From Antedon mediterranea (Eukaryota; Echinodermata; Crinoidea; Comatulida; Antedonidae): 64,000 nucleotides of DNA. Where the stretch lies: positions 25,401,001-25,465,000 of the forward strand of contig NC_092674.1 in NCBI RefSeq assembly GCF_964355755.1. Direction: 5' to 3'. This document shows, piece after piece, positions 5,616 through 63,415 of the stretch; the first letter of the stretch is position 1; every line of letters begins with the position of its first letter. The position numbers were made by a program, and so were the translations under genes. The notes under the pieces were generated by a model. The model saw only the letters and a program-made list of their open reading frames with translations, was not told the DNA's origin and ran no database searches.

Positions 5616-5812
5616 AGCGTGGTTCCCACTAGAACGCAACGCAACGTAAAGCAGCGACGTATCGACGCAAAGTGTTGTATTGCGTAATCACAAGTGGGAA
5701 CTGACATGCAACAGTGCTGGAAACATCGCAGGTTTGATTTCACGCAGGCGGGGGCAAAGACAATTATTGGAAGGGAATTTTCTTACGTTGCGTAGGTTGC
5801 GTTACGTTGCGT
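5616..5812. mobile_element. AGCGTGGTTCCCACTAG MITE, right terminus lost
   Basis: The left end AGCGTGGTTCCCACTAG follows TTA. The interior is rich in ACGCAACGTAACG and its complement, as in the complete copy at 15096-15306. No matching right terminus is present. Confidence 0.6.
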
Positions 5813-15306: not shown

Positions 15307-16925
15307 TAATTAAGGTTATACCACATCAGATTAACCAGGGATCATTTCACTCGTCCCTGTATTAACCTTGTTATTTTATTATCTGTACTCAAAGTAACCA
15401 GTTTGTTCAAAAACACATTGCTTTCTTCTGTGATGTTTAGATCACCCGGTTTCTGGGTACTGTATGTTGTGAATAAACAGTAATTAAAATGTGAATAATT
15501 GTAATGATCATGGCATTTGAGATACCGCGAAAACTGCCAAGTGGCTATGCAAATTCAAGTGAGGCCTTTTTAACTGTTTGCATGTCAGTGTACTGTTATT
15601 GAACTGATATAGCCTTGGGTTATTTTAAATATACAAACGACTGAACAACCACAACAAATTATACGAATAATTAACGAATAATTAATGTTTCTCTGAACTT
15701 GCGAAAAGTAGGTAAGCGGTGCCGTTGTACAGCGGTCTTTAATTGGAGAGAGTCTTTAACTTGATGGAGACACCCGGTTTCTAAGTACTGTATGTTGTGA
15801 ATAAACACAATAATTAAAATGTGAATAATTGTAATAATCGTGGCATCTGTGATACCGCGAAAACTGCCAAGGTAGGTAAGCGGGGTCGCGGTACAGCGGT
15901 CTTCAATTGGAGGGAGTCTTTAACTTGAGGGAGACGATTTATTTTTAGTCGTGTGCAACGCGACATTACAGCTCACTATATCGGTCTGTAGGTCGGTCGG
16001 TCAGTAAACACTAATTTAAATTTGAGCACGCGACTGCAGCCATGTACAGTATGGCCTTGTATTGTTTAAGCACGTGAAAGAAAACAAAGTCAAGTGGATA
16101 GAATGAATGCAAATACAAATGATGCCTTTTAAACTTTCCGCGTGCCAATATTTATTGAACTTATATAACCCTAAATTATTTTAAATATACAAACTTCTGA
16201 ACAACCACAACAAATTTAAGAAAATATTATTGGTTTATTATTTCAACCAATATTTACTTTTGTACCAAAATAACATGCATCATATTTGTTTGGCCAAATT
16301 GCAAGAATTGCGACCCTAGTAATGGCGCCAATTCCGTGAGAAAGTAATTTTAGATTTATTTTGAATAGTAAATATTCGAGGAAAACTAAAATTTGGCCAC
16401 CTTTCAAAACACACACTATATTATGTAACTGGAACAGTACCGTACACATTTTCGTATTCAATAACAAAACTAAATCAGATACGTTTTAATTATAAATATT
16501 AGAGTAGGCCTATTCAAACTTCTGACAAATCAGAAAAACAAATTTGTGCGTGTATAGGTGTATTATTTCAACCGATATTAACTTTTGTACCAAAATAACA
16601 TGCATTATTTTTGGGCCAAATTCCAAGAACTACGACCCTAGTAATGTCGCCGATTCCGAGAAAGTAATACACAACCAATTAGAGTGAAATTTTAGATTTG
16701 ATTTGAATAGTAAATATTTTAGGAAATCAAACATTTGGAATTGGAATTATGGCACAAAGGTGCATGAACCATATTTTATCTGCCACGTTTCAAAACAAAT
16801 ACACTAAAACTGGAAGAGTAGGCCTACACATTTTGTATTCAATAACAAAACTTAGATACGTTTTAATTATAAATGTTAGAGGAGTATATAAGTAGTATTA
16901 ATTTTCAATATAATTATAATATTTT

Positions 16926-18054: not shown

Positions 18055-18799
18055 ATCAATAATACTTGGATATGTTTACTTAAGTTAACACCCACAAATT
18101 TAGGACGTCAATCGCTATTATGCTAACAAACAAACAACGCAAGTGCTATACTTAGCAAAAATGAACGCAAGAACAGACAACGTCACGACAAAGCAGAAAT
18201 GAACGTATGTTTTGGAGAGGCTAACTATAAATTTAAACCTTGGAAACCACGAGACACAGCTAGCCGTTTTAAAATGTAGATAAATACCGGAACTTTAGGC
18301 CCTATATTTATTAGGTAACGTATCAAGTTTATTTAGGTTTTTGTGACAATGTTTTACCAGCAGTAAAGTGGTATTGGAATGCTATAGGTCATAGACATTG
18401 TCCAACTATGATGTACTGTACACAGTACGGAATCTATGCCATTTTTAAAAGAATAAAATTATTTATGGAGCGCATAAAGTTTAATAATTTAGTATTGGTT
18501 TCCTTTGGTAGTCGTTGTTGATAGCCATTTAGTTCATTAATTTTGTTATTATAGGCCTACTATGCCTATGTGTATTTGTTCTGAATTGTATAATAAAAGT
18601 ATGCGATTAATTGTTTCTTGAAGTTGTGTTATTTTATTGTTTAAAATACATCAATAACTAACTCGTGAAGCCATTTTAATTTCAACCCTGGTTTTATTTC
18701 GCCAACTATGCGCTAAAGCACAAAGCAATAGCATCATCTACCGTGAATAATAGATATCATTTGTTAAGAAAAATGTATCCATATATGATAGTACTTTTA

Positions 18800-19644: not shown

Positions 19645-19667
19645 TCATAAACATTCATTATTTGTAT

Positions 19668-20084
19668 AATATTGTGCATACAACGCATGGTAACTCGCGG
19701 CTATTACGGTGGATATGTGAGTGAGCAACCTACTCTGATGGCAAGAACAAAAAGGCATTGTTGTTGCTTGAATTACCCTTGGTTTGGGAAGACCCAACAG
19801 AATGCATAATCATGTGCAGTTGTCTAGCCTTCAGGGCATGTACGTTTAGCTGGGATCATAATACTTGTTGGCCTTTTGCCAGACATACTGCGCAAGATGC
19901 ATCCTTCTGAAATGGGTGACCCCAAGCGTATTTTCCTCCACTTGACGCTGCCGCTATTTTACGTTCGTCCATTCATATCTATTCGCCCTAAACAGCCATT
20001 GTAATCGGTTGAGAAAGTTGAAAAACACAGTGTTTTAATTGTACCAGCTCCATAATGTGAATAAGTGCCCTCCACCAAGATATC
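19668..20084 (-). pseudogene. Relic of the C4-like terminal exon
   Basis: Minus-strand similarity to exon 4 of the C4-like genes is clear. It has the acceptor-side GGATATCTTGGTGGAGGG, the AGTATTATGATCCCAGCTAA region, and the 3' part preceding the TGT-ATGCAC end. It is shorter than the intact exons (482-491 bases), carries several frame-breaking deletions, and has lost the terminal stop. Its downstream flank (18600-18790) matches the 3' flanks of 10079 and 40746. No exon 1-3 partner was found. Confidence 0.8.
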
Positions 20085-20277
20085 CTAAAATAAATAACAC
20101 TGTGGTCGAATGGATTAAAATATAATAGTTCTTCAACTAAATTTAGTTTGTTGTAATCAATGGACTCGTTCAGGCTTAGTTTGCCCGCTAAGTTGACTTA
20201 AAACCACTAACTTTGGTAACCAGCTTATCCGGGTATATTACAACACCTGAACGTACCCAATATCATGTTTACTTACT

Positions 20278-21234
20278 AAAGCCGATTTTCCACTAGGCGA
20301 ATTTGTTCGCGCGAATCGAAAGCGTCATGCTATGCACATGCGTATTCTAGTTTCTGTCTGTCATACTCCTTTCTGCAACGAATTCTAGTTCCTTTGATTT
20401 TTCGCTGCAGCGAAATTTAATAGTTCGAATTGTTTCTGCTTTTTGCCTCGGTATAACTTGGACACAGAAAAAGACATTAAAAGAAGAAAATCACTAGCAG
20501 CTATGGCATATAACAAGGTGAAGTCGTCGCTAGAACACAAAACGATGTCTATAGACGTGAAATCCCGTTTGTTTGACGCATACATAGCAAGTATTTTCTT
20601 ATGTAACAGTGAACTCTGGGTACTAAACAAAAAATTACAAGAGAGTATAGATATATATCACAGGAAAATGTTGCGAAAGATGATAGATATTAAATTAACA
20701 GATAGAGTGTGTAACACGAAAATATACAAGATAACAAAACAAGAAGAATGGAGTAAAAGAATTAAACGGAGGAGACTAAAATGGTATGGACACATAATTA
20801 GATTACCGGATGATACCCCAATCAAATAAACAATGAAGGAAACTAACAGGAAAGTAAAACGACCCGTAGGAAGACCAAGAAATAACTGGATGAATCAAAT
20901 ATAGAAAGACTTACAAGGACAAGTAGACACTAACACAATAACAAACCATCCTGCCATAAACAGAAAAAAATGGAAACAAATTGTGGAAAGCGTAATGTCG
21001 GAAGACGGAAAACAGTTTTGCGAAGAAAAAAAAATTGCCCAATCAATTCAATTGAATTAGAGCTCAAGAAATGAGCTATGACGCTTTCATGAGCACTCAT
21101 GCGAATCGAAAAGCTCAGAAGCCACGCGAGGAGCATAAACGTCGCAGCTATTCGCTCATGTAGTGGAGGCGATTTTTTTCTCTTCGAAACATTGGATTGG
21201 CGCAAACAAATTCGCTTAGTGGAAAATGGGCTTT
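20278..21234. mobile_element. TIR element with a LINE fragment nested inside
   Basis: The left end AAAGCCGATTTTCCACTAGG and right end AGTGGAAAATGGGCTTT are inverted. The subterminal GCGAATTTGTTCGCG and GCGCAAACAAATTCGC continue the pairing. The 20440-21060 segment in the middle is an RTE-like LINE fragment, so the element without it would be a short MITE of roughly 0.3 kb. Confidence 0.7.
20440..21060 (+). mobile_element. LINE fragment (endonuclease-reverse transcriptase C-terminal region)
   Basis: The frame 20452-20829 has the RTE-like C-terminal pattern: DIKRRKSLAAMAYNKVKSSL, SRLFDAYIASIFLCNSELWV, HRKMLRKMIDIK, and RRRLKWYGHIIRLPDD. Two stops follow within KRPVGRPRNNWMNQI. It is 5'-truncated and inactive. 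Confidence 0.8.
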
Positions 21235-21467
21235 ACATACGACTTTCTGAAGATGTAAGCTTGCAGTCTGTCTACCCCAATTCTGTAAATAAAAAACAGT
21301 ATAATAATAATTGACCGAGATTTTAAAGTTAAGGCTTTTTATATTATCCAGACCGAAAGAGTGGAATCTCCGAGCAACTAGATGTCCACCCCCATTTTGG
21401 TTTGGGATGTGGTGGAGAGTAGGCCTACGTTAAAAACAAGTGTGCTATTTCCGAGAATCTAGAGGTG

Positions 21468-22282
21468 CTATATTTTAAAGAAAGTGAAGGCGTGTAAATT
21501 ATATTGAAAATGATGATACATACTATATAGTTCTACTTCACAAAGAGTGAGAGGTTCCCTTCCTTGAAGATATACACTGACGTACTGTCCTGTAATTGGT
21601 GGACTACACACAATTTCAATAGGATTTGTACGAATCATGGATGTCGATAGAGTAGCTCCACATTGGTCATTTCCTTTATCAAAAGGTGGAATGTTGTTGT
21701 TCCCAACACGAACTTTTGCACCTTTCAGTCTATTACCTAGTTAGTTAGACAAAATGGACATATCGGGTAAATATAATTATGTTTAAAAGATGTCTTTAAA
21801 AAAAGGATAAAAATAACTAATAAAATATAATAGTAAAGTTGTAAAATTACGTTAAATGTTTTTTTTTATTTTTGCTAAAATGTTTTAACTTGTTCTTACC
21901 ACAACAGTCTTCTCTGTTATATATCACAATCTTTGAAATAGGAATGGGTGATCCTAAATCAACATACCACCAAGGATCTTTAGAATTAGAGTCTTTGGAA
22001 AAATTAAACAAATCAGTTACTTCTATTCAGTCATTTTACAATTTATTCTGGCTTTAAAAGTGTAATAATAAACGATTTCGACTAAGATAAAATATAATAA
22101 TAAATACGAAAATATGGTATAAAATATGTATATCCATGTTTCATTGTACTTACGGGTGTGGGTACACGTCTTTTTCCAAAAGTTTCCGTCGGTTTTTCCA
22201 TCGATGGCTCTACCAGCAACAGCTCCAGAACCATGTGTAGAAATCTGTTTAGCTCCTTCAAAATCTGTCACTCTCACATTCA
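21468..22282 (-). CDS. F-lectin domain, unit 6 in protein order, with C-terminus
   Basis: Exons 22154-22282 (129), 21900-21992 (93) and 21468-21736 (269, terminal). It is the most diverged unit: VTDFEGAKQISTHGSGAVAGR, then SKDPWWYVDLG and LQGREPLTLCEVELY, followed by a unique tail (SMYHHFQYNLHAFTFFKI) and TAG. The donor that ends the other units is missing, so the reading frame runs to its own stop. The fucose motif is retained (the His may be either of two, giving X25 or X27). Confidence 0.8.
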
Positions 22283-25200
22283 CTAAAATTCAATTCGCAA
22301 AAATGTAATACAGTTTTATTATTCTATGCAAAATAATTTAATAATAAGAAGGATAGTACTAAATATTTTCTGAGACTATTCTATACAATTTCGTAAGAGA
22401 AGTTTTCTACCTCCTGTAACCCCTCCGACTTGAGCCTTAATGGAGTATTCACGTTTAATCAACAATCGAAACATTTATTTCATTATAAATTCTCTTAGAT
22501 AATAGGTAGTTTATCGATTCAACATGTATGCGTTATTGTCAATCCTACTAATTTTTTTTTGTAATTGTGTAAATATTCATTTTATTACAACTTCAATTGT
22601 TTTATTTGTCAATGGCTACATCTCTGAATGTATGTCATTTTACCTTTAGGTCTACTAGATGGTGTAATTTATTCATTAAAATGCCCTTTATCCCTTGTCT
22701 GACACGTGACTATGCAGTTTAAAATTGCAGTGAATGGGCATTTTCTATCACTGGTCGCAATGTTAAAATTTGATTACAACCTTCTCTTACTCATATTATT
22801 GCATTTCGCATAACACTCGATTTAACTACCACAATGTAATATAAAACATTTTACATTCGTAAAATAGCACGGTCAATATAATGGGCATTATAAAGACAGT
22901 AGTCACAATTTTGAATAATTTAGTCACCGCCAAACAAAATAACATATTGGTTTAATAAATCATGTTTACACGACCGTCTATGGCACAGTTTTACTGTTGC
23001 ACCCCATCCCACCACGATTTACTTTTGATTTAGGCTTTAAATTATACATTCTTACTTCTATCTGTAAATAGTTCTACTTCACAAAGAGTGAGAAATTCCC
23101 GTCGAGGAAGATATACACTGACGTACTGTCCTGTGATTGGTGGGCTACACACAATTTCAATAGGATTTGTACGAATCATGGATGTCGATAGAGTAGCTCC
23201 ACATTGGTCATTTCCTTTATCAAAAGGTGGAACGTTGTTGTTCCCAACACGAACTTTAGCATCTCTCAGCCTATTACCTAGTTAGTTAGACAAAATGGAC
23301 ATATTGGGTAAGTACAATTATGTTTAAAAGATATCTTTAAAAAGAATAAAAGTAGCCTAACTAGTAAAATATAATAGTAAAGCTGTAAAATTACGTTAAA
23401 TGTTTTTTTTTTTATTTTTGCTAAAAATGTTTTAACTTGTTCTTACCACAACAGTCTTCTCTGTTATATATCACAATCTTTGAAATAGGAATGGGTGATC
23501 CTAAATCAACATACCACCAAGGATTTCCAGAATTCTCTATGAAAAATTAAACAAATCAGTTATTTCTCTATTAGTCATTTTACAATTTATTCTGGCTTTA
23601 AAAATGTAATAGTAAACTTTTTCGACTAAGATCTAATATAATAATAAATACGAAAATATGGTAACAAATGTGAATATCCATGTTGCATTGTACTTACGGG
23701 TGTGGGTACACGTCTTTTCCCCAAATTTTCCGTCCGTTTTTCCATCGATGGCTTTACCAGCAACAGCTCCAGAAGAACCATAATTAGAACTCTGTTTAGC
23801 TTCTACAAACTTTGTAACTTTCACGTTTACTAAAATTAGAAACCATAATACAGACGTTTTATTACACCGTGCAAAATAATTACAGTGGAAAGACATAGTC
23901 AACGGTATACATACCTGCGACGTCTTATAAAACAAAATATGCATTTTATTACAACTTCAGTTGTTTTATTTGTAAATTACAATATCTCTGAATGTGTGGA
24001 ATTTTACCTGTAGGCCTACTAGATGGTGTAATTTCTTCTGTAATTATTTCTCCGCCTTTAAAAAATAAATACATTTTTTTTTAATTTTGTAAATATGCAT
24101 TTTTTCTACTTATTTGTAAATTACAATATCTCTGAATGTGTGGAACTTTACCTGTAGGCCTAGTATTGTGTATAATTTCTTTTATTTCATGAAAATGTCC
24201 TGTATCCCTTGTCTGACACGTGACTATGCAGTTTAAAATTGCAGTGAATGGGCATTTTCTATCACTGGTCGCAATGTTAAAATTTGATTACAACCTTCTA
24301 TACTCATATTATTGCATTTCGCATAACACTCGATTTAACTACCGCAATGTAATATAAAACATTTTACATTCGTAAAATAGCACGGTCAATATAATGGGCA
24401 TTATAAATACAGTAGTCACAATTTTGAATAATTTAGTCACCGCCAAACAAAATAACATATTGGTTTAATAAATCATGTTTACACGACCGTCTATGGCACA
24501 GTTTTACTGTTGCACCCCATCCCACCACGATTTACTTTTGATTTAGGCTTTAAATTATACATTCTTACTTCTATCTGTATATAGTTCTACTTCACAAAGA
24601 GTGAGAAATTCCCGTCGAGGAAGATATACACTGACGTACTGTCCTGTTATTGGTGGGCTACACACAATTTCAATAGGATTTGTACGAATCATGGATGTCG
24701 ATAGAGTAGCTCCACATTGGTCATTTCCTTTATCAAAAGGTGGAACGTTGTTGTTCCCAACACGAACTTTAGCATCTCTCAGCCTATTACCTAGTTAGTT
24801 AAACAAAATGGACATATTGGGTAAGTACAATTATGTTTAAAAGATATCTTTAAAAAGAATAAAAGTAGCCTAACTAGTAAAATATAATAGTAAAGCTGTA
24901 AAATTATGTTAAATGTTATTTTTATTTTTGCTAAAAATGTTTTAACTTGTTCTTACCACAACAGTCTTCTCTGTTATATATCACAATCTTTGAAATAGGA
25001 ATGGGTGATCCTAAATCAACATACCACCAAGGATTTTCAGAATTCTCTATGAAAAATTAAACAAATCAATTACTTCTATTCAGTCATTTTACAATTTATT
25101 CTGGCTTTAAAAATGTAATAATAAACTTTTTCGACTAAGATCTAATATAATAATAAATACGAAAATATGGTATAAAATGTGAATATCCATGTTGCATTGT

Positions 25201-28200
25201 ACTTACGGGTGTGGGTACATGTCTTTTTCCCAAAGTTTCCGTCGGTTTTTCCATCGATGGCTTTACCAGCAACAGCTCCAGAAGAACCATAATTAGAACT
25301 CTGTTTAGCTTCTACAAACTCTGTAACTCTCGCATTCACTACAATTCAATTCGCAAAAATGTAATACAGTTTTATTATTCTATGCAAAATAATTAGAAAA
25401 AACGAAACAAATATTAAATTATTAACGCTAGCCTATACATCTGGAACGTATATATTATAGTAGGGTCTATAAGGATAGTACTAAATATTTTCTGAGACTA
25501 TTCTATACAATTTCGTAAGAGAAGTTAACTTTTCTACCTCCTGTGACCCCTCCGACTTGAGCCTTAATGGAGTATTCACGTTTCCCTACACCACCATTTA
25601 TATTGTGTACTTGGTTGTCAGCCAATTTAGTATGCAAATTACCACCAACCCATCTGACCGAAGAATCTCCTCCATAATTGTATGTTAACACTCCTGTACC
25701 AAATGACCATCCAATCATATCGCCGGATTCTACTGTAATTCGTTCACTTTCAGGTATTCTATAAGTAACTTCTTTGTTAGCGTCACGTGCAGCTGGTATG
25801 TTATTGATACCCACAATCTTAAATTTCGAGTTTGAACCTTCTATCTGCCTAAATACAATAGCTTTAAATGCTGATTTTGTTTTGCCTTGGTATGACCAAC
25901 TTGTAACTTGGCCACTACAAGAAAACATTTGATCTAGCGCTACCATTGTCCAGCCATTACTATCAGGACCACCACGATTTTTAACTTGCCAACCTGCACT
26001 GCAATAGTCAGCTGTAAAATTAATCAACAATCGAAACATTTATTTCATTATCAATTCTCTTAGATAATAGATAGTTTATCGATTCAACATGTATGCGTTA
26101 TTGTCAATCCTGCTAATTTTTGTAATTGTGTAAATATGCATTTTATTACTATTTCAGTTGTTTTATTTGTCAATGGCTACATCTCTGAATGTGTGCCATT
26201 TTACCTTTAGCCTACTAGATGGTGTACTTTCTCTTATTCATGAAAATGCCCTGTATCCATTGTCTGACACATGCAGTTTAAAATGAATGGGCAACAAAAA
26301 CATGTTTACCATTACATTTTGGTATTTATCATTTCATCATATCCGCAGCGCAAAAGCCCGATTGTCGCATTTTCACTCGATTTTGCCCTCTATGAAAAAA
26401 ACCTTTTTCCAATCGCGCCTATATAAATAATATTGTTTGTTTGTGTTCGTTCTTTTAAAAAGGACAAAGGAGTCCGATTGCTCATTAACTTTGTTGCACT
26501 TGTGTGTTTTAGCTCACAAGTTTGTGATAGGATTGCTACCTACTTAAAAATATTGTAAATAAACAAAATTATTCAAGTAGTGAAGTGAAGTTATAAGTAC
26601 GCAAATAAAAACAAAATCAAAGTGCCCCAACCAAATAAAAAATAATGAATATAAAAATTATTATAATTAACGAACGAACGAAAAACTCACAACGCATGCA
26701 ACGTTTGTTGAACATCAACCTAGGCGTACATAAAAGTAACACTTACAGTGAAAATCTACTAGTTTTTACTATGTCACGTACAATAAACAAAGGTTGAAAA
26801 GGCATGTATTAAGATGAGAAAAGACTATAAACCATAATACTGTGAATTTAAAAAAAAAATATTATCATTTCATCATATCAACACAAATTCAGTAGGCTAT
26901 AGGCCTATACCCACCCGTAAAACTTAGGGAAGGTAGGCCTATATCATATTAGAATAAAAAGATTAATAGAGTTTCCACATATAAATCCCAAAACAATTTT
27001 TTTCCGAAAGAATGAACCACCACCAATGATTTGGTTCAGCTTACGTTCACAATTGTAGTAAACCCGCATGTATTTATGGGTTCCTCTGCATGGATCTCCG
27101 AACACAGAATTAGACGCGGGAATTGTACACTGTTGTTTTCCTTCACAACGTCTTGTTATCTCGTTTTCTGCACTCCTTGCGGAACAATCAGTGTTTTCCG
27201 TCGGTCCGTTGGGACACACGAGGCTATTGCTGCGACCGTAAAAACCATAGTAGATCTTAAGTGAATGATGTGGTTCGCAGGAAATAGTTCCAGTTTCCCC
27301 TTCACATGTATTAATCTGCGATAATCCTACAAACAAATATTTCATTATTACTAACAAGTTCTACATACCTGTAGGCCTACTAGATGATGTAATTTCTCTT
27401 ATTCATGAAAATTCCCTGTATCCCTTGTCTGACACGTGACTATGAGGTTTAAAATTGCTGGTAAATGGTCATTTTCTATCACTGGTCGCAATGTTAACAT
27501 TTTATTACAACCTTCTCTAACTCATATTATTGCATTTCGCATAACACTCAATTTTACTACTGCAATATCATATAAAACATTTTACATTCGTGAAATAATA
27601 AAAGTAGCACGGTCAATATAATGGGCATTACACATACAGTAGTCAGAATTTTGAATAATTTAGTCACCACCAACCAAAATAGCAAATTGGTTTAATAAAC
27701 CATGTTTACACGACCGTCTATGGTACATTTTTACTTTTTGAAATGTAGTTTAAAACCTTCCCGGTACAATTGCGATCATTTGACACCCCATATGTATGGT
27801 AACATGCAGACATTTGTATAACGAACAAACATCGAAAGTGGGGAAAAGTGGGCGATTTTTACCACATTTTGGCCTCTAACTTGGATCCTAGATGGCAGAT
27901 GATGTTCAAATATAGTTTAGAACTTTCCGGTACAATTGGGGTCATTTTGATACCCCATAATTGAAGGTAAAACATTTGTATAACAAACGAACAAACAAAC
28001 AAACACACAAACGTACAAACTCTCTAACTTATAAAATAGATAGTATAAGGATAGTACTAAATATTTTTTTAGACTATTCTATAAAATTTAGTAAGAGAAG
28101 TTAACTTGTCTCACCCCCTGTAACCCTTTCGACTTGAGCCTTAATGGAGTATTCACGTTTCCCTACACCACCATTTATATTGTGTACTTGGTTGTCAGCC

Positions 28201-31200
28201 AATTGAGTATGCAAATTACCACCAACCCATCTGACCGAAGAATCTCCTCCATAATTGTATGTTAACACTCCTGTACCAAATGACCATCCAATCATATCGC
28301 CGGATTCTACTGTAATTCGTTCACTTTCAGGTATTCTATAAGTAACTTCTTTGTTAGCGTCACGTGCAGCTGGTATGTTATTGATACCCACAATCTTAAA
28401 TTTCAAGTTTGAACCTTCTATCTGCCTAAATACAATAGCTTTAAATGCTGATTTTGTTTTGCCTTGGTATGACCAACTTGTAACTTGGCCACTACAAGAA
28501 AACATTTGATCTAGCGCTACCATTGTCCAGCCATTACTGTCAGGACCACCACGATTTTTAACTTGCCAACCTGCACTGCAATAGTCAGCTGTAATATTAA
28601 TCAACAATCGAAACATTTATTTCATTATAAATTCTCTTAGATAATAGGTAGTTTATCGATTCAACATGTATGCGTTATTGTCAATCCTACTAATTTTTTT
28701 TTGTAATTGTGTAAATATTCATTTTATTACAACTTCAGTTGTTTTATTTGTCAATGGCTACATCTCTGAATGTGTGTCATTTTACCTTTAGGTCTACTAG
28801 ATGGTGTAATTTATTCATTAAAATGCCATGTATCCCTTGTCTGACACGTGACTATGCAGTTTAAAATTGCAGTGAATGGGCATTTTCTATCACTAGTCGC
28901 AATGTTAAAATTTGATTACAACCTTCTCTAACTCATATTACTGCATTTCGCATAACACTCGATTTCACTACCGCAATGTAATATAAAACATTTTACATTC
29001 ATGAAATAGCACGGTCAATATAATGGGCATTATAAATACAGTAGTCACAATTTTGAATAATTTAGTCACCGCCAACCAAAATAACAAATTGGTTTAATAA
29101 ATCATGTTTACACGACCGTCTATGACACAGTTTTACTGTTGCACCCCATCCCACCACGATTTACTTTTGATTTAGGCTATAAATTATACATTCTTACTTC
29201 TATCTGTATATAGTTCTACTTCACAAAGAGTGAGAAATTCCCGTCGAGGAAGATATACACTGACGTACTGTCCTGTGATTGGTGGGCTACACACAATTTC
29301 AATAGGATTTGTACGAATCATGGATGTCGATAGAGTAGCTCCACATTGGGCATTTCCTTTATCAAAAGGTGGAACGTTGTTGTTCCCAACACGAACTTTA
29401 GCATCTCTCAGCCTATTACCTAGTTAGTTAGACAAAATGGACATATTGGGTAAGTACAATTATGTTTAAAAGATATCTTTAAAAAGAATAAAAGTAGCCT
29501 AACTAATAAAATATAATAGTAAAGCTGTAAAATTACGTTAAATGTTATTATTATTTTTGCTAAAAATGTTTTAACTTGTTCTTACCACAACAATCTTCTC
29601 TGTTATATATCACAATCTTTGAAATAGGAATGGGTGATCCTAAATCAACATACCACCAAGGATTTCCAGAATTCTCTATGAAAAATTAAACAAATCGGTT
29701 ATTTCTCTATTCAGTCATTTTACAATTTATTCTGGCTTTAAAAATGTAATAATAAACTATTTCGACTAAGATCTAATATAATAATAAATACGAAAATATG
29801 GTAACAAATGTGTATATCCATGTTGCATTGTACTTACGGGTGTGGGTACATGTCTTTTTCCCAAAGTTTCCGTCGGTTTTTCCATCGATGGCTTTACCAG
29901 CAACAGCTCCAGAATAACCATAATTAGAACTCTGTTTAGCTTCTACAAACTTTGTAACTTTCACGTTTACTAAAATTAGAAACCATAATACAGACGTTTT
30001 ATTACACCGTGCAAAATAATTACAGTGGAAAAGACATAGTCAACGGTATACATACCTGCGACGTCTTATAAAACAAAATATGCATTTTATTACAACTTCA
30101 GTTGTTTTATTTGTAAATTACAATATCTCTGAATGTGTGAAATTTTACCTGTAGGCCTACTAGATGGTGTCATTTCTTCTGTAATTATTTCTCCGCCTTT
30201 AAAACAAAAAATTAATACGTTTTTTTGTAATTTTGTAAATATGCATTTTTTTCTACTTATTTGTAAATTACAATATCTCTGAATGTGTGGAACTTTACCT
30301 GTAGGCCTAGTAGATGGTGGATAATTTCTCTTATTTCATGAAAATGTCCTGTATCCCTTGTCTGACACGTGATTATGCAGTTTAAAATTGGAGTGAATGG
30401 TCATTTTCTATCACTGGTCGCAATGTTAAAATTTGATTACAACCTTCTCTAACTCATATTATTGCATTTCGCATAACACTCGATTTAACTACCGCAATGT
30501 AATATAAAACATTTTACATTCGTAAAATAGCAAGGTCAATATAATGGGCATTATAAAGACAGTAGTCACAATTTTGAATAATTTAGTCACCGCCAAACAA
30601 AATAACATATTGGTTTAATAAATCATGTTTACACGACCGTCTATGGCACAGTTTTACTGTTGCACCCCATCCCACCACGATTTACTTTTGATTTAGGCTA
30701 TAAATTATACATTCTTACTTCTATCTGTATATAGTTCTACTTCACAAAGAGTGAGAAATTCCCGGCGAGGAAGATATACACTGACGTACTGTCCTGTGAT
30801 TGGTGGGCTACACACAATTTCAATAGGATTTGTACGAATCATGGATGTCGATAGAGTAGCTCCACATTGGTCATTTCCTTTATCAAAAGGTGGAACGTTG
30901 TTGTTCCCAACACGAACTTTAGCATCTCTCAGCCTATTACCTAGTTAGTTAGACAAAATGGACATATTGGGTAAGTACAATTATGTTTAAAAGATATCTT
31001 TAAAAAGAATAAAAGTAGCCTAACTAATAAAATATAATAGTAAAGCTGTAAAATTACGTTAAATGTTATTTTTATTTTTGCTAAAAATGTTTTAACTTGT
31101 TCTTACCGCAACAGTCTTCTCTGTTATATATCACAATCTTTGAAATAGGAATGGGTGATCCTAAATCAACATACCACCAAGGATTTCCAGAATTCTCTAT

Positions 31201-34171
31201 GAAAAATTAAACAAATCAGTTACTTCTATTCAGTCATTTTACAATTTATTCTGGTTTTAGAAATGTAATAATAAACTTTTTCGACTAAGATCTAATATAA
31301 TAATACGAAAATATGGTATAAAATGTGAATATCCATGTTGCATTGTACTTACGGGTGTGGGTACATGTCTTTTTCCCAAAGTTTCCGTCGGTTTTTCCAT
31401 CGATGGCTTTACCAGCAACAGCTCCAGAAGAACCATAATTAGAACTCTGTTTAGCTTCTACAAACTTTGTAACTTTCACGTTTACTAAAATTAGAAACCA
31501 TAATACAGACGTTTTATTACACCGTGCAAAATAATTACAGTGGAAAGACATAGTCAACGGTATACATACCTGCGACGGCTTTTAAAACAAAATATGCATT
31601 TTATTACAACTTCAGTTGTTTTATTTGTAAATTACAATATCTCTGAATGTGTGGAATTTTACCTGTAGGCCTACTAGATGGTGTCATTTCTTCTGTACTT
31701 ATTTCTCCGCCTTTAAAACAAAAAATTAATACGTTTTTTTGTAATTTTGTAAATATGCATTTTTTTCTACTTATTTGTAAATTACAGTATCTCTGAATGT
31801 ATGGAATTTTACCTGTAGGCCTACTAGATGGTGTAATTTCTTCTGTAATTATTTCTCCGCCTTTAAAAAATAAATAAATACATTTTTTTTGTAATTATTT
31901 TTGTAAATATGCATTTTTTCTACTTATTTGTAAATTACAATATCTCTGAATGTGTGGAACTTTACCTGTAGGCCTAGTAGATGGTGTATAATTTCTCTTA
32001 TTTCATGAAAATGTCCTGTATCCCTTGTCTGACACGTGACTATGCAGTTTAAAATTGCAGTGAATGGGCATTTTCTATCACTGGTCGCAATGTTAAAATT
32101 TGATTACAACCTTCTCTAACTCATATTATTGCATTTCGCATAACACTCGATTTCACTACCGCAATGTAATATAAAACATTTCACATTCGTAAAATAGCAC
32201 GGTCAATATAATGGGCATTATACATACAGTTAGTCACAATTTTGAATAATTTAATTACCGCCAAACAAAATAACATATTGGTTTAATAAATCATGTTTAC
32301 ACGACCGTCTATGGCACAGTTTACTGTTGCACCCCATCCCACCACGATTTACTTTTGATTTAGGCTATAAATTATACATTCTTACTTCTATCTGTATATA
32401 GTTCTACTTCACAAAGAGTGAGAAATTCCCGTCGAGGAAGATATACACTGACGTACTGTCCTGTGATTGGTGGGCTACACACAATTTCAATAGGATTTGT
32501 ACGAATCATGGATGTCGATAGAGTAGCTCCACATTGGTCATTTCCTTTATCAAAAGGTGAAACGTTGTTGTTCCCAACACGAACTTTAGCATCTCTCAGC
32601 CTATTACCTAGTTAGTTAGACAAAATGGACATATTAGGTAAGTACAATTATGTTTAAAAGATATCTTTAAAAAGAATAAAAGTAGCCTAACTAATAAAAT
32701 ATAATAGTAAAGCTGTAAAATTACGTTAAATGTTATTTTTATTTTTGCTAAAAATGTTTTAACTTGTTCTTACCACAACAGTCTCCTCTGTTATATATCA
32801 CAATCTTTGAAATAGGAATGGGTGATCCTAAATCAACATACCACCAAGGATTTCCAGAATTCTCTATGAAAAATTAAACAAATCAGTTATTTCTCTATTC
32901 AGTCATTTTACAATTTATTCTGGCTTTAAAAATGTAATAATAAACTTTTTCGACTAAGATCTAATATAATAATAAATACGGAAATATGGTATAAAATGTG
33001 TATATCCATGTTGCATTGTACTTACGGGTGTGGGTACACGTCTTTTTCCCAAAGTTTCCGTCGGTTTTTCCATCGATGGCTTTACCAGCAACAGCTCCAG
33101 AATAACCATAATTAGAACTCTGTTTAGCTTCTACAAACTTTGTAACTTTCACGTTTACTAAAATTAGAAACCATAATACAGACGTTTTATTACACCGTGC
33201 AAAATAATTACAGTGGAAAGACATAGTCAACGGTATACATACCTGCGACGTCTTATAAAACAAAATATGCATTTTATTACAACTTCAGTTGTTTTATTTG
33301 TAAATTACAATATATCTGAATTTGTGGAATTTTACCTGTAGGCCTACTAGATGGTGTCATTTCTTCTGTAATTATTTCTCCGCCTTTAAAACAAAAAATT
33401 AATACGTTTTTTTGTAATTTTGAAAATATGCATTTTTTTCTACTTATTTGTAAATTACAATATCTCTGAATGTGTAGAATTTTACCTGTAGGCCTACTAG
33501 ATGGTGTAATTTCTTCTGTAATTATTTCTCCGCCTTTAAAAAATAAAGAAATACATTTTTTTGTAATTTTGTAAATATGCATTTTTTCTACTTATTTGTA
33601 AATTACAATATCTCTGAATGTGTGGAACTTTACCTGTAGGCCTACTAGATGGTGTAATTTCTTCTGTAATTATTTCTCCGCCTTTAAAAAATAAATAAAT
33701 ACATTTTTTTTGTAATTTTGTAAGTATGCATTTTTTCTACTTATTTGTAAATTACAATGTCTCTGAATGTGTGGAATTTTACCTGTAGGCTTACTAAATG
33801 GTGTAATTTTTTCTGTCATTCTTTCTCCGCCTATAAAAAAGGAAATAAAAAAAGAAAAGAAAATACAACACAACACAACAATGTAATTAAATGCGTTTAT
33901 GTAAAGAGATCTCGTACTATTGCACGCCATGTGACCCACAATCGTCCAATCAAATGACAGCCGGGAATTTATTTGGGTGTTATATAATAGATACTTACTG
34001 GAGGGAGTAGTTGTTTCCCCAACATTTTTTGTACAATTCTGTTTAGCCTCTAAAAAATGTGCCACTGAAATTACAAAATGCATTTTTCTATTACTACAAG
34101 AAAACCTTTATAGATACCATTATAATAACCATTATTTTCATTTTACCAATCATACTACTATATTCAGTATC

Positions 34172-34228
<57 letters not shown>

Positions 34229-35333
34229 AATGTACCTCGTAAAGATAATGTATTAAAGATAGTCCCTCAAATAACATGAACAATTAAGATTAAAAAAGGC
34301 TTTGAATAGGCCATTTCGCAGTTTTAATAAAGAGGAAAAATAAAAAACTTAAAAAAACAACTTTTTCAACAATTAAATTCAACCAAAAATCTACTGACTT
34401 CCAGTCAATTTGAATATTTAAACATTTACCAGCTCATGTCGGTTGGTTGGTCGGTCGGTAAACACTAACTTGAGCACGCGACTGCAGCCATGTATATGGA
34501 ATTGTTTGCTTTAAATTATTGATTTTTCAGGTAAATCTTTTTTTTTTCTATCCAATTTTTGGTCAAAGTGACTACTTCTAGAACCTTTACATCGATTGTT
34601 GACAAAGTTAATTTATTTTTAAATGATAACTAGGGTGACATTAGTTCAGACTGACTAACTTAAAAGGCAAGCAAAGCGTTTGCGAAACATAGTAGAGAAT
34701 ACTCTATTTGTACTTATTTATTTTCTGTTATTAGATCAAGAAAATAATTGTTTAGACACTTTTCTGAAAATTAAAGATAACATTTTTATAATTTAGTGAA
34801 AGATAGTGAAAATCTGTCAAGTTTGTGAATAATAATTCAAAATACAATGTTTATTTACTCTCAAAAGCAATGTGCAGGAAAAGAAAATAAAGGAAATAAG
34901 ATAGTAATGTTCTAAATCACATAAATGCAAACTTACATTTGGCGCCGAAAAAGAAGTTCCAGGTCAATCCGCCATTTTTCACTTTGGCCTTTATAATAAT
35001 TATAATTTGAAATATATAATTATTAGTTTAGAAAACTGGTCAGGGAGATAGGAAGATATCAAAATATTCAATTATATATTTTTAAGAAAATAAGCATATA
35101 ATACGTCGAAAATTAGACAGACTTACATAAGCAAATGTCAGTAATTGGCAAACTTAGAGTTTGGCAAGAAAAGTATAGACTAAGTCTTACGCAAGCAAAC
35201 GTCTAAGTGTGCGAACAACTAAAGTTTCCTACTGTAGACTAGGCTTAAGACTATGTGGCCTTACCGATATCTTTGCTTCCGTTAGCAAAATCAGACAACA
35301 GACTAAAACGACAGTACATTTTAAGATCTTCAT
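21468..35333 (-). CDS. Secreted multi-lectin: 6 F-lectin, 1 rhamnose-binding lectin, 2 unclassified 158-aa domains
   Basis: I assembled about 33 exons on the minus strand from consensus splice sites. Exon 1 is 35265-35333, exon 2 34937-34988, exon 3 33999-34064, followed by linker micro-exons, F-lectin units of three exons each, two 474-base exons, one 282-base exon, and a terminal exon with TAG at 21468-21470. The total is 4512 bases, exactly 1504 codons, with no internal stop in the exons checked. Exon 1 ends in phase 0 and every later junction is phase 1, so all modules are symmetric and interchangeable. Exon 1 encodes a signal peptide (MKILKCTVVLVCCLILLTEA). No transmembrane segment or GPI signal was seen, so secretion is likely. 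Exons 1-2 are homologous to those of the C4-like genes, so the gene is a chimera. Some modules may be alternatively spliced. The product should bind glycans multivalently; this is inferred from the families. Confidence 0.8.
22416..22463 (-). pseudogene. Remnant of a third 158-aa domain exon
   Basis: The last 48 bases of the 474-base exon (ending KREYSIKAQV) and its donor (G|GTAGAA) are preserved, joined directly to the sequence that normally lies upstream of the acceptor (TTTCGATTGTTGATT). The acceptor and about 430 exon bases are deleted. It would therefore be skipped, joining unit 5 to unit 6. Confidence 0.8.
22560..22900 (-). repeat. Intronic duplicated spacer with defective linker exon
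   Basis: The same spacer recurs after each block (22640, 24145, 26205, 27365, 28780, 30295 and 31960). It carries the 3' half of a linker micro-exon (TCTAGTAGGCCTACAG|GTAAA or variants) whose acceptor half is replaced by a shared unrelated sequence (CATGAAAATGTCC). Because all share that junction, the defect predates the block duplications. Confidence 0.65.
23056..23829 (-). CDS. F-lectin domain, unit 5 in protein order
   Basis: Exons 23698-23829, 23447-23536 and 23056-23277. Carries DGKFGEKTC in place of DGNFGKKTC, and ends VELFTDR instead of VELYTDR. Fucose motif intact. Confidence 0.85.
24008..24055 (-). CDS. Linker micro-exon
   Basis: 48 bases, phase 1-1, encoding GGEIITEEITPSSRPT, between F-lectin units 4 and 5. 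A defective copy lies at about 24147. Confidence 0.7.
24569..25338 (-). CDS. F-lectin domain, unit 4 in protein order
   Basis: Exons 25207-25338, 24957-25046 and 24569-24790. The domain begins VNARVTEFVEAKQ; its first exon has the intron type shared with unit 6 (GAATTG-AATTGTAG acceptor) rather than that of units 1-3 and 5. Fucose motif intact. Confidence 0.85.
25538..26011 (-). CDS. Unclassified 158-aa domain, second copy
   Basis: 474-base exon, phase 1-1, donor G|GTAGAA. Differs from the first copy by only a few residues (for example HTKL for HTQL, NSKF for NLKF), so the duplication is recent or subject to gene conversion. Its flanking introns are also duplicated. Confidence 0.75.
27045..27326 (-). 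CDS. SUEL-type rhamnose-binding lectin domain
   Basis: A single 282-base exon, phase 1-1 (acceptor TTTGTAG, donor C|GTAAGC), 94 codons. It has the family's Cys spacing and both signature regions: the YYGFYGR near the N-terminus (YGR motif) and ASNSVFGDPCRGTHKY near the C-terminus (DPC/KY motif). Eight Cys are visible, as expected for four disulfides. Known members bind L-rhamnose or galactose. It sits between the two copies of the 158-aa domain. Confidence 0.9.
27735..28045. repeat. Dispersed repeat ending in AACAAACAAAC
   Basis: Two tandem related halves contain CCGGTACAATTG and CATTT-GATACCCCAT, then an AACAAACAAACAAAC tail. It resembles the 3' tail of a non-LTR element or SINE. It lies in the intron between the first 158-aa domain exon and the rhamnose-binding exon. 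Confidence 0.5.
28115..28588 (-). CDS. Unclassified 158-aa domain, first copy
   Basis: A single 474-base exon, phase 1-1 (acceptor TTACAG, donor G|GTGAGA), encodes a Cys-poor, Gly/Ser/Val-rich, probably all-beta domain. Key segments are DYCSAGWQVKNRGG, SNGWTMVALDQMFSCSG, VTSWSYQGKTKSAFKAIVFR, SGDMIGWSFGTGVLTYNYGG and GKREYSIKAQV. Only two Cys are present, close to the N-terminal third. I do not recognise a named family. The alternation of aromatic and Gly residues suggests a jelly-roll or lectin-like fold, but that is a guess. It is about 97% identical to the copy at 25538-26011. Confidence 0.75.
29198..29969 (-). CDS. F-lectin domain, unit 3 in protein order
   Basis: Exons 29838-29969, 29586-29675 and 29198-29419. 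Fucose motif intact. This unit has Ala in place of Ser in the segment before DKGNDQCGAT (TGGGCA codon context on the plus strand near 29349), otherwise nearly identical to the other units. The next exon downstream is the 158-aa domain. Confidence 0.85.
30149..30196 (-). CDS. Linker micro-exon
   Basis: 48 bases, phase 1-1, encoding GGEIITEEMTPSSRPT, between F-lectin units 2 and 3. A defective copy follows at about 30299. Confidence 0.7.
30719..31484 (-). CDS. F-lectin domain, unit 2 in protein order
   Basis: Exons 31353-31484, 31107-31196 and 30719-30940. Same 148-codon structure as unit 1, with H-X26-R-E-D-C-C-G-N-R intact. The last exon ends in phase 1 at A|GTAAGA. If it were not spliced the frame would stop after Ser-Lys-Asn-Val, so an early-terminating isoform is possible at every F-lectin unit that has this donor. 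Confidence 0.85.
31663..31860 (-). CDS. Two linker micro-exons
   Basis: 31813-31860 and 31663-31710, both 48 bases, phase 1-1, encoding GGEIITEEITPSSRPT-type (second with variant I-S-T-E-E-M). They lie between F-lectin units 1 and 2. A further defective copy near 31966 has lost its acceptor half. Confidence 0.7.
32386..33157 (-). CDS. F-lectin (FTP) domain, unit 1 in protein order
   Basis: Three exons: 33026-33157 (132), 32774-32863 (90) and 32386-32607 (222), together 148 codons, all phase 1. The domain runs from VKVTKFVEAKQSS through AVAGKAIDGKTDGNF, CTHTQ, NPWWYVDLG, a DCCGNR turn and YLPRREFLTLCEVEL. The fucose-site signature of F-type lectins, H-X(24-26)-R-X-D-X(4)-R/K, is present: the second residue of THT is the His, 26 residues separate it from Arg, and R-G-D-C-C-G-N-R completes the motif. 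Fucose binding with Ca2+-stabilised fold is expected from the family. Confidence 0.85.
33336..33830 (-). CDS. Array of four 48-bp linker micro-exons
   Basis: Exons 33783-33830, 33634-33681, 33486-33533 and 33336-33383 are each exactly 48 bases, phase 1-1, with acceptor TTTAAAG or TTTATAG and donor GTAAAA. Three encode GGEIITEE[IM]TPSSRPT and the first a variant (GERMTEKITPFSKPT). The repeat period is 148-150 bp, so exon and intron were duplicated together. The products would be 16-aa Thr/Ser/Pro linkers suitable for O-glycosylation. Other intact copies lie at 31813-31860, 31663-31710, 30149-30196 and 24008-24055. Confidence 0.75.
33906..33990 (-). repeat. Fragment of repeat family X in the multi-lectin intron
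   Basis: Inverted relative to 18800 and 56405; shares the CAATCGTCCAATCAAATGACAG region. It ends 8 bases from the donor of exon 3. Confidence 0.6.
33999..34064 (-). CDS. Multi-lectin exon 3: truncated F-lectin start plus linker
   Basis: 66 bases, phase 1-1, acceptor AATTTCAG and donor GTAAGT. It encodes AHFLEAKQNC then TKNVGETTTPS. The first half matches the start of the F-lectin exon 1 (VTKFVEAKQSS), so it looks like an F-lectin exon cut short and turned into a linker. An inverted fragment of repeat family X (33906-33990) lies only 8 bases from its donor. Confidence 0.7.
34173..34225. repeat. (AT)n microsatellite
   Basis: About 26 uninterrupted AT repeats in intron 2 of the multi-lectin gene. 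Confidence 0.95.
34937..34988 (-). CDS. Multi-lectin exon 2: GG-WNFFFG module
   Basis: 52 bases, phase 0 to phase 1, encoding AKVKNGGLTWNFFFGAK. The same 52-base exon (61 bases in one gene) occurs as exon 2 in every C4-like gene here: 12333, 42684, 51133 and 57184. The invariant part is W-N-[FL]-[FL]-F-[GD]. I recognise no named domain. Confidence 0.8.
35265..35333 (-). CDS. Multi-lectin exon 1: signal peptide
   Basis: Encodes 23 residues, hydrophobic from position 6 to 17, ending TEAKIS before a GTAAGG donor in phase 0. It is closely similar to exon 1 at 44253-44321 (same length, CCLILLTEAK shared) and to 13716-13778, which marks common ancestry with the C4-like genes. Confidence 0.8.
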
Positions 35334-35409
35334 TTTCATTAGTAGTTTTCAGTACATCTTCAAACGAATGAATTTGATGGAATGTGAATGTACAACCGAT
35401 CCTGTTTTG

Positions 35410-35417
35410 TTATATAT
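35410..35417 (-). promoter_or_regulatory. TATA box of the multi-lectin gene
   Basis: TATATATA about 80 bases upstream of the ATG at 35333, similar in placement to those upstream of 288 and 13778. Confidence 0.4.
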
Positions 35418-35419
35418 AC

Positions 35420-36547: not shown

Positions 36548-36775
36548 AAGCGTGGTTTCCACTAGAACGCAACGAACGTAACGCAGTGACATGACGTATC
36601 GACGCAAAGTGTTGTATTGCGTAATCAAACGTGGGAACCGACGCCGATGCAACAGTGCTGCAAACATCACAGGTTTGATTTCACACAGACGGGGGAAAAC
36701 ACAATTATTGGAAGGGAATTTTCTTACGTTGCGTAGGTTACGTTACGTTACGTCGCTAGTGGAAACCAATCTTTC
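36548..36775. mobile_element. AGCGTGGTTTCCACTAG MITE
   Basis: Left end AGCGTGGTTTCCACTAG after TAA; right end CTAGTGGAAACCA. The interior has the GCAACGTAACG motifs of the 15096-15306 family. Slightly degraded. Confidence 0.65.
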
Positions 36776-40745: not shown

Positions 40746-43700
40746 TTATCTTGTGCATACAACGCATGGTAACTCACGGTTGTTTACATACGGCGGACAT
40801 TTGAGTGTACCGCATACTCCGACGGCAGGATAAAGCAAAAAGCCGTTATGGTTTGTAGCGGAATTATCTCTAGATTGGGGAGAGCCATCGACGCAAAGGA
40901 ATTCATGTGCGGCTTTATGATCAGTTTTACCACCCATTAATAGACCTTCGTATTCCTTTGTCCAGCCTCCAGGACATGTTCGTTTAGCTGGGATCATCAT
41001 ACTTGTTGATCTGCCTGTTGCCAGACATACTGCGCAAGATGGATCATTTTGATATAGGTGACCCCACGGAGCATATATTTCTCCCCCACTTGGCGCTGTT
41101 TGATACTCGGCCCCAAATACTTTAGCCCGGGCAGATCCTGTCGAAAACAACTGGTCATTGTAATCTGGCGAGGATGGCAAACACAGTGGGTTTGTACCAG
41201 CTCCAGAATTTGTATAGTGTCCGCCGCCAAGATATCCTTTAAAAAAATCAAAATGTTGAATGTTGCGCGGTCTGTTGCTTTTATTATAATTTTATATAGG
41301 CATAAATGCAATCATTGTAAGCCTATATTTAAATTTTATTATCATACATGTAAATATAATATAAATAATGTAGTTAATTATAATTATATTTCAAGTATAA
41401 GAAAAGGTTCATCTGTATGAATATAATAAGTAGAGAAAGACATATTAATATATTATTTATAGACAGTATTCTACTGTGTTAATTTTTTTTGTTTGTTTCA
41501 TATTGTGATCAATTATCGGATAGGTAAATAAGCCTGAACACGACCAATATCATTTTACTTACCAATATATACGACTTTTGAAGACTTTGGGCAGTCCTTC
41601 CGACCCCAATGATTATACACAACATTGGAACTTGCCAAAGTGATGCCTGATGAAAATTCTGTAAAAAAAAATTTAAAAAAAACAAAACAAAAAACACGTA
41701 TACTATTATTTGAATTTGATCAATCCCACTCGATGAGGTGATACTGTAAGGACGGACGCGAAACACAAGTAAATTAATCAATCACAATCGACAAGAAGAA
41801 ATTCGATTATACGAACTATCGTTTGTGGTTGGTCAATTTGTGTGCTTACGCGTTTCGTCCTTTTTATTCGAATCCCCTTCGTCATGATTTGGCAGTCCGC
41901 TGCAGGACATATCTCTCTTCTAAAGCTCTCCATCTGCTTCTATGTTTTGCAACCAGTTGTATTGAGGTTTGCCTATTTTCCTTTTCCCTATCATTGGTTG
42001 CCAAATTATAATTCTTCTTGTCCATCTATCTTCCTGGATTTTTGCAACGTGGCCTTCAAATCATCACTTTGTATCAATTGCTTGAAGCAGGGCTCTTGTT
42101 TTTTTATCTTTCTCTTATTTCTTTGCATGGTATCTTGTACATTATTGCTATACCAAGCATTCTCCATTCCGTAGCATACGGGGTAGATCTTAACTAATCC
42201 TTGTTTTTTCTCGGTTAGTCTCCGCGTTGCTGTCATTTTCCGTGCGAGAATAATTTTCGAACATTTTCTTTCTGAGGCACATTATTATATATTATAACCT
42301 ATTATTTGAATAGTTGCAAGGATGTCTTTGAATCTGCCAAACGCTCGGCATCCTGTTATAATTCTGTCTGTAATGTCTTTGGATTTCTTTGATAGGCTGA
42401 TAGGTTTGCTATAAGTTGTTAACTGTTTAAATGTTTGGATTTGTGTCAGAGTTGGTCATAAATTTGGTTTTCCCTTATAATTTTAAACTCAATTTCTTGC
42501 CTTATTCATTTATCCTTTTTAATTGATCTTTGTCCCACGCTTGAAAGAGTATGAACCTAATTTCATTAGACTATAATTTTGAAGATAGTGAAACTATTAT
42601 TGTAGTCTATTAAGATATCTCAAATAAAAAGAAATAGTACTGCTCTTACTAAATTAATCATCAGAAGATAAGGTTAAGCCTACCTTTGCCGCCGAAAAAG
42701 AAATTCCAGATTACTCCACTCTTGTCCTCAGTGGCCTTTATAATAATTAATATAAAATATATAATATTTACTTTAGGCTGATGTTGACGTATTAAAGTGT
42801 AAAATGAAATAAATACTTTTAACACATATAATTTATTTATTGCGGTATATACAAATAATAAATAAATTACAAAGCAATAGCTACGAGCTAAGCATGTAAG
42901 TTGTAAGTGTATGAAGATCATGATGGACACATTTCAACAATGCAAAAATTCAAATGCACAAAAATGCGGCTTATATTGATTATAATGAACTATTTAATGT
43001 TGTATTATATTTGTTATTTTATTCTTAAAGAAAAACAGCAATGAACACCGCCACAGGTTGGATATACAACAAAACAAGGCCATATACATGGCTGCAGTCG
43101 CGTGTTCAAGTTAGTGTTTATGACCGACCGACCAACCGACCGACCGATATAGTGAGCTGTAGAGTCGCGTTGCACACGCGACTAAAAATAACTTAAACAG
43201 TCACATTTGTCACAACATCTATATAAATCAGCATGTCATTGTCGATTAAGTGGTAGCGGCAATACATTTTTAATCTGATATTCAAAATTAAGTAGACTAT
43301 ATAAATTTATTGAATAATTTAGGAAAGATGCTTGCTACTATAAACTATGCTTAATTTAGAGTTAACTTAAACTTAGAGTTTGCTAGAGATTCCGAACTAA
43401 AGTTTGCTAGTGTAGACACATTACACTCACGGTTTGTAAACCTCGAGAATTGACAAACTTAGAGTTTATTAGAGTTTCTGAACTAAAGTTTGCTACTGAG
43501 ACAAGTTTACACTCACAGTAGTTAAACCTCGGGAATTGGCAAACTGAAAGTTTGCTAGAGATTCTGAACTAAAGTTTGCTAGTGTAGACAAGTTTACACT
43601 CACAGTTTGTAAACCTCGGGAATTGGCAAACTTAGAGTTTGCTAGAGATTCCGAACTAAAGTTTGCTAGTGTAGACAATTTTGAACTCACAGTAGTAAAC

Positions 43701-63380: not shown

Positions 63381-63415
<35 letters not shown>

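Follow-up and report, generated by a model that had tools for sequence, protein, structure and literature searches.

The window analysed here is a stretch of 64,000 nucleotides (nt) from the crinoid Antedon mediterranea (RefSeq assembly GCF_964355755.1, contig NC_092674.1, positions 25,401,001 to 25,465,000). It holds a tandem array of C4-like genes, referred to as A to E, and, on the - strand from 35339 to 21468, a gene model for a mosaic multi-lectin protein whose first two exons belong to the same C4-like family. Gene A encodes a product of 235 residues with 99% identity to P0124 (short-chain collagen C4-like isoform X2 of Antedon mediterranea), while genes D and E correspond by inspection to P0125 and P0129, with the NCBI name short-chain collagen C4-like. 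Beyond the lectin exons lie the decayed remains of further C4-like exons. Positions within the window are as follows.

35340-35418, - strand: core promoter and 5' untranslated region (UTR) block common to C4-like genes A, B and C (blastn and alignment), with TATA-like TATATATAA at 35418-35410
35265-35339, - strand: exon 1, encoding the signal peptide; ATG of the family at 35333 and a further in-frame ATG at 35339
35121-35163, - strand: 43-nt piece of intron 1, similar to the 86-bp repeat found expanded in gene A intron 1
34937-34988, - strand: exon 2, 52 nt, WNFFFG motif, phase-1 end
33999-34064, - strand: exon 3, 66 nt; first half like the start of an F-lectin A exon (by inspection)
33336-33830, - strand: four 48-nt mini-exons encoding GEIITEEITPSSRPT-type linkers
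31860-31813, 31710-31663, 30196-30149 and 24055-24008, - strand: four further mini-exons
32386-33157, - strand: F-lectin unit 1 (three exons)
30719-31484, - strand: F-lectin unit 2
29198-29969, - strand: F-lectin unit 3
28115-28588, - strand: domain U copy 1, single 474-nt exon
27045-27326, - strand: SUEL (rhamnose/galactose-binding) domain, single exon
25538-26011, - strand: domain U copy 2, single 474-nt exon
24569-25338, - strand: F-lectin unit 4
23056-23829, - strand: F-lectin unit 5
22427-22456, - strand: remnant of a third domain U exon (KREYSIKAQV), acceptor lost
21468-22282, - strand: F-lectin unit 6, the most divergent; read-through to the stop at 21468 or possible donor at 21520
21234-21281, - strand: decayed C4-like exon 3 of the presumed recipient, to which all four paralogous exon-3 queries align best within 34900-18000
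20277-21235, no strand assigned: inverted-repeat element with 44-bp ends, 89% complementary, at the end of C4-like exon 3
19666-20089, - strand: decayed C4-like exon 4 of the presumed recipient, 8 frame-breaking indels relative to gene A
18353-18781, - strand: C4-like 3' UTR of the presumed recipient; AATAAA at 18698 and 18638, common to genes A and B
40746-44321, - strand: open C4-like gene A, closest paralogue of the presumed recipient; exon starts 44321, 42735, 41658 and 41236

Gene model, domains and 5' end

The gene model was rebuilt from unit homology and splice sites, and the window sequence reproduces the model of a preliminary description made from the letters alone: 32 exons and 31 introns with no internal stop, in an open frame that ends at 21468 and spans 4518 nt from the first ATG (35339) or, as originally given, 4512 nt when counted from the ATG at 35333, the one aligned with the neighbouring genes. 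Intron 1 is in phase 0 and the remaining 30 of 31 introns are in phase 1, so that the claim of phase-1 junctions from exon 2 onward holds at 30/30. Because the exon-search patterns demanded AG and GT at exon ends (the end of domain U copy 1 was shifted by one base afterwards), GT-AG at 31/31 introns is part of the model and no independent test of it; with the splice sites built in, the openness of the frame is the property tested. Donors read GTRAG in 22 of the 31 introns, and all eight mini-exons carry the weaker GTAAA. The domain order is signal peptide, AKVKNGGLTWNFFFGAK segment (the WNFFFG exon), short exon 3, F-lectin units 1-3, U-SUEL-U and units 4-6. The eight 48-nt mini-exons are in frame and each encodes a 16-residue Thr/Ser/Pro-rich repeat, with four before unit 1, two before unit 2, one each before units 3 and 5, and none before units 4 and 6. 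The preliminary description did not mention these mini-exons, nor the leftover of a third U exon and the decayed C4-like exons downstream. In the predicted product the top hydrophobic 19-residue window beyond residue 30 scores merely 0.81, and a membrane segment is therefore not expected.

The assignment of six F-lectin, one SUEL and two unclassified domains is borne out by Pfam, which matches the first two types and gives no family for domain U. One F-lectin unit, typed from its exon peptides, matches PF22633 (3e-22) and PF00754 (6e-16), and its PDB sequence matches are FBP32 (1.3e-41) and the lectin 1k12 (8.8e-26). The fucose motif HX26RXDX4[RK] is present in 5/6 units, and the version in unit 6 has one extra residue. 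An excerpt of a review of F-type lectins gives the motif spacing as HX24 (PMC5712786); the HX26 spacing of the window units is the same as in the 1k12 alignment. The cation motif hhDG is found in 6/6 units, followed in 6/6 by Lys, versus N, D or S at that position of the motif hhDGx. The SUEL domain matches PF02140 (5.8e-22) over profile positions 1-80 of 80 and PDB entry 5h4s (1.7e-54). Its exon contains, by inspection, YGR and DPCRGTHKY, and the motifs of SUEL/rhamnose-binding lectins are YGR and DPC...KY.

The blastn matches of the 5' end place the proposed homology of exons 1 and 2 to the neighbouring C4-like genes beyond chance. The exon 1 region (35416-35260) matches gene A at 44399-44248 (76%, E 1e-22) and the exon 2 region (35031-34934) matches it at 42776-42681 (79%, E 1e-16), with further 5' matches of the lectin gene at 13848-13713, 292-223 and 12425-12328. 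Similarity to genes A, B and C covers exon 1 and ~75 bp ahead of it, the TATA-like block included; for exon 2 and the intron bases on either side of it, the matching genes are A and B. The preliminary description had a lectin cassette joined to a C4-like promoter and secretion exon, which stands for the promoter block, the signal-peptide exon and the WNFFFG exon and is refined by what lies around them: the cassette sits where intron 2 of the recipient should be, and exons 3-4 and the 3' UTR are decayed downstream. Exons 1 and 2 are open with intact splice sites, unlike exons 3 and 4, and the frame, the splice sites and the intact state of these two exons suggest that exon 2 would be spliced to the lectin exons. 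In intron 1 of gene A, an 86-bp tandem repeat array occupies 43335-44209, and a piece of it is present in intron 1 of the lectin gene.

The 3' end of the lectin gene is uncertain. The frame may run to the stop at 21468, or a possible donor, CTATATA/GTATGT at 21521/21520, could splice to the C4-like exon 3 remnant.

Decayed C4-like exons beyond the lectins

C4-like exon 3, exon 4 and the 3' UTR follow the lectin exons in decayed form, on the same strand and in the same order. Four paralogous exon-3 queries have their best match within 34900-18000 at 21281-21234 or 21281-21237. The shuffle p for this remnant is 0.003-0.007 in a 1.36-kb stretch, and for two of the four queries at least one of 300 shuffles reached the score; as the queries are paralogues, their agreement does not amount to four independent tests. 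Base 20276, the next after the inverted-repeat element, starts a match to gene A that runs from the intron 3 donor, and 0/500 shuffles were as good. The element itself encloses a + strand open frame (20398-20829), the product of which we take to resemble the tail of a retrotransposon polyprotein. In the exon 4 remnant, the 8 frame-breaking indels relative to gene A compare with 0 in four comparisons among A, B, D and E.

Identity to the paralogues falls in the same order on the two sides of the lectin exons: for exon 2 with its flanks it is.78 to A,.73 to B,.61 to E and.58 to D, and for the exon 4 remnant.70,.65,.63 and.61, respectively. Because the order A>B>E>D recurs in both halves, the cassette most likely lies within intron 2 of one C4-like gene. 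Another origin would have exons 1-2 and exons 3-4 come from different C4-like genes, joined by unequal crossing-over or deletion around a lectin gene, and an array that is tandem and fast-changing, in which the 5' ends of genes B and C agree at 179/185 sites (97%), with gene C at the left window edge, could supply such events. With both halves ranking A, B, E and D alike, one event suffices, and we regard a two-gene origin as distinctly improbable; it bears on origin alone and is compatible with an expressed chimera.

In the annotated C4-like paralogues P0124 and P0129, intron 2 is in phase 1 and splits a codon as G/AA. A phase-1 recipient intron is what the rule for class 1-1 insertion demands, according to an excerpt of PMC3927616, and in the lectin gene model all introns from exon 2 onward (30/30) are in phase 1. 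As read from the phases, this is exon shuffling of the classical class 1-1.

The interpretation that we favour, at a probability of roughly 0.64, is that a lectin cassette was inserted into phase-1 intron 2 of a C4-like gene of the tandem array, with a predicted secreted chimera arising from the captured 5' end. Lectin exons flanked by phase-1 introns would have entered intron 2 of one such gene, and exon 2, read in frame into the lectins, would have given the new gene the use of the recipient's core promoter, signal peptide and WNFFFG exon. Exons 3 and 4 of the recipient would thereby have become dispensable and decayed, the insertion of a mobile element probably contributing, while within the cassette units would have multiplied and been lost with the frame kept. 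The product would be a secreted protein of ~1500 residues that combines six fucose-binding sites with a single rhamnose/galactose-type domain and a pair of beta-rich modules. Its Thr/Ser/Pro linkers, if flexible, could permit multivalent, high-avidity binding of fucose-bearing glycans, with the SUEL domain adding a second specificity. Possible glycan targets are those of microbes, of the animal's own secretions or of gametes, and the putative use is in recognition or adhesion.

Turnover, constraint and alternative explanations

A tree was built from 50 F-lectin domains of 11 chosen proteins and the window, with at most 4 domains each for Xenopus and Branchiostoma floridae. In it the six window units and five units of Antedon P0007 form one clade (support 100/99). 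Divergence among units 1-5 is 1.1-2.7% in exons and 1.9-3.4% in introns, and unit 6 lies at 6.9-8.5% (exons) and 9.6-10.6% (introns) from the other units. Variable sites among units 1-5 number 19/444 in exons versus 18/321 in introns (p 0.40). Exon lengths are the same in all five of these units, whose introns show gaps (1, 2 and 4 nt); unit 6 has an A exon shorter by 3 nt and, in the model, a B exon longer by 3 nt. As mini-exon counts vary and a U exon was deleted, modules seem to have been gained and lost in whole 1-1 steps.

Domain U departs from this pattern. The two U exons differ at 7/474 sites versus 18/316 in the flanking introns (p 0.0014), and thus show coding constraint, unlike the comparisons between F-lectin units. 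The deletion of a third U exon, between 22456 and 22455, left 22456-22427 without an acceptor. The domain has no Pfam family at E<=1 and no PDB sequence match even at E 10, and its structure model is all-beta with a predicted local distance difference test score (pLDDT) of 67, a middling confidence; its structural matches stay at the level of the common beta-sandwich and single out no F5/8C-like or carbohydrate-binding-module (CBM)-like fold. A search of 5.8 billion proteins for relatives, at lengths of ~230-729 residues, gave 26 candidates and three relatives: two proteins of Amphiura filiformis (P0121 and P0122) at 63% and one further record at 61%. None of the three has SUEL or F-type units like those of the window. 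Pattern matches in viral contigs (3) and in prokaryotic genome contigs (51) yielded 0 confirmed relatives in either set. P0121 has U in alternation with F5/8 type C (discoidin) domains. From sequence and model, the most fitting description of U is a beta-rich domain, as yet unnamed, that accompanies glycan-binding or discoidin modules.

Several results weigh against insertion of a cassette into intron 2 with an expressed chimera as its outcome. At the 5' end, the breakpoints in intron 2 could not be located, and the end of the match after exon 2 is uninformative on the insertion point because intron 2 of A and intron 2 of B do not align with each other. The absence of frameshifts from exons 1-2 is weak evidence (2.0 expected, P 0.135), and the ratio of nonsynonymous to synonymous substitution rates (dN/dS) of these exons relative to gene A is ~0.7, from few sites. 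Purifying selection between F-lectin units was sought in exon/intron, codon-position and dN/dS comparisons and was not found: across all six units, 45/435 exon sites vary versus 44/318 intron sites (p 0.17), and variable sites are spread over the codon positions as 11/16/18. In unit 6 the length differences do not fit multiples of three cleanly: at the start of its B exon the alignment has a 4-nt gap, which is absorbed by an acceptor one base off. No AATAAA lies between the stop at 21468 and 19458, though variants of it occur. Finally, an architecture search among proteins of 828-2633 residues scored 7989 candidates, of which 192 passed, and the best 120 of these 192 matches included no protein of this architecture; the same database holds the NCBI models for neighbours A, D and E, and a near-identical protein would have ranked first.

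Some of these points would be explained if the whole locus were a non-expressed pseudogene or a dying gene, with the frame open just because the copies are young. The unit exons evolve about like introns, the dN/dS of unit 6 relative to the other units is 0.59-0.88, one boundary of its B exon bears the 4-nt gap, and one U exon has been deleted. Set against this, the 32 modelled exons are free of stops and frameshifts, exon lengths in units 1-5 are constant while the introns are gapped, the U exons are conserved relative to their flanks, and ligand motifs are kept in 6/6 units with the one extra residue in unit 6. We consider decay of the entire locus quite unlikely.

Also unlikely, in our judgement, is that the lectin exons form one or more independent genes with their own starts, nested inside an intron of a C4-like pseudogene of which exons 1-2 are a leftover. 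Exon 3 and the A exons of units 1, 2 and 5 each continue an open frame that begins with ATG, though by inspection the hydrophobic stretch ahead of those A exons is the pyrimidine-rich acceptor in translation, and units 3, 4 and 6 lack such a frame ahead of them. The C exons of units 1-5 reach an in-frame stop four codons past the donor, which makes short three-exon products conceivable, yet these exons end in a phase-1 donor and the mini-exons have both splice sites. An independent lectin gene would agree with the failure to find a long annotated protein in the length ranges searched (828-2633 and 230-729 residues), whereas the intact exons 1-2 and their splice sites, beside exons 3-4 that are not intact, argue for a gene that begins at exon 1. 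Separate transcription of each unit, suggested by the ATG frames before 3/6 A exons, was judged less likely.

An extension of the favoured insertion goes considerably further, and we find it doubtful. The cassette would have taken the whole C4-like expression unit, perhaps with the old exon-3 acceptor and the poly(A) signals of the decayed gene serving as its 3' end, and through the WNFFFG segment that they share, the lectin and its C4-like neighbours could assemble together. Because the modules are all 1-1 and near-identical, lectin-domain number could also vary between individuals, giving a fast-changing recognition or adhesion system like oyster bindin.

Neighbouring genes and known systems

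Among 11 protein matches, P0124 included, WNFFFG is by inspection exact in 4, variant in 4 and absent from 3. The check for collagen and type IV collagen C4 (NC1) character covered the gene A product, which has 0 Pfam families at E<=1 and no run of three or more Gly-X-Y triplets. With neither present, the family name is no evidence of matrix function, and the suggestion that the lectin came under matrix-gene control finds no support; the matrix-gene label, whose sole basis was the database name, was dropped. An excerpt of PMC6626399 reports two short-chain collagen C4 genes raised in the adhesive pedal disc of Exaiptasia, and a bioadhesion role was too thinly based to rank.

Gene B (10082-13781, - strand) has an in-frame stop in exon 4 (AKG*SAS) and may be a pseudogene. 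P0124, annotated as isoform X2, has no VP where exons 1 and 2 join, consistent with an alternative donor 6 nt upstream of the exon 1/intron 1 border of gene A (~44253). On the - strand, the open frame at 62669-63640 encodes a long Gly-rich run and, after it, KSHEHGG/GSKSKG repeats; another triplet array of this type is present at 59361-59631. A dispersed repeat of ~200 bp is present in three copies (36548-36753, 5615-5812 and 15100-15310).

As far as sequence can tell, the locus is a real chimera made by a known mechanism, with unusually complete traces. The recipient, the 5' exons captured from it, the lectin cassette and the 3' exons left behind lie side by side, next to open paralogues that display the prior state. 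As recipient, insertion and decay are visible together, the steps and timing of domain shuffling become testable with crinoid genomes and transcripts. The locus also brings domain U to light, in a crinoid, a brittle star and one further record, in two of them with lectin-type or discoidin modules.

The preliminary description knew of no protein with this exact order. Mosaic proteins with multiple F-lectins have been described before, and some of them include further lectin types; what appears new, within the searches made, is this order and origin. Those searches found none of the architecture among the 120 of 192 matches or the U relatives. Among the matches listed from open-licence PMC articles, by title and start of abstract, no description of this protein or of a C4-like/F-lectin chimera was found. 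The poly-F-type lectins (Antedon P0007, Branchiostoma P0004/P0005, Xenopus P0001 and FBP32) have tandem F-lectin domains like the window gene. Antedon P0007 shares its Thr/Pro-rich linkers as well (by inspection) and also has C-type lectin domains. In contrast to the window gene, neither the 120 of 192 matches considered nor the 3 U relatives have a WNFFFG-type motif in the first 200 residues. Branchiostoma lanceolatum P0030 combines F-lectin-type and SUEL domains in one chain, but it has one F-lectin domain (profile matches of at least 95 positions) with WSC and other domains, and its order and origin differ.

Oyster bindin, according to an excerpt of PMC5712786, has one to five tandem F-lectin domains, with recombination and alternative splicing, and resembles the window gene in its tandem domains; it is, however, a sperm acrosomal protein under positive selection (PMC5712786). 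The window gene has the wider domain set, and no selection was detected on its units. In Amphiura filiformis, P0121 and P0122 have 63% identity over domain U, the partners of U being discoidin domains and no SUEL in P0121, and F-type lectin and SUEL domains in the window gene. The Antedon C4-like proteins (P0124, P0125 and P0129) share with the lectin gene the core promoter block, the signal peptide and the WNFFFG exon. The lectin gene is unlike them in that the C-terminal C4-like domain is not encoded intact and survives as decayed exons downstream.

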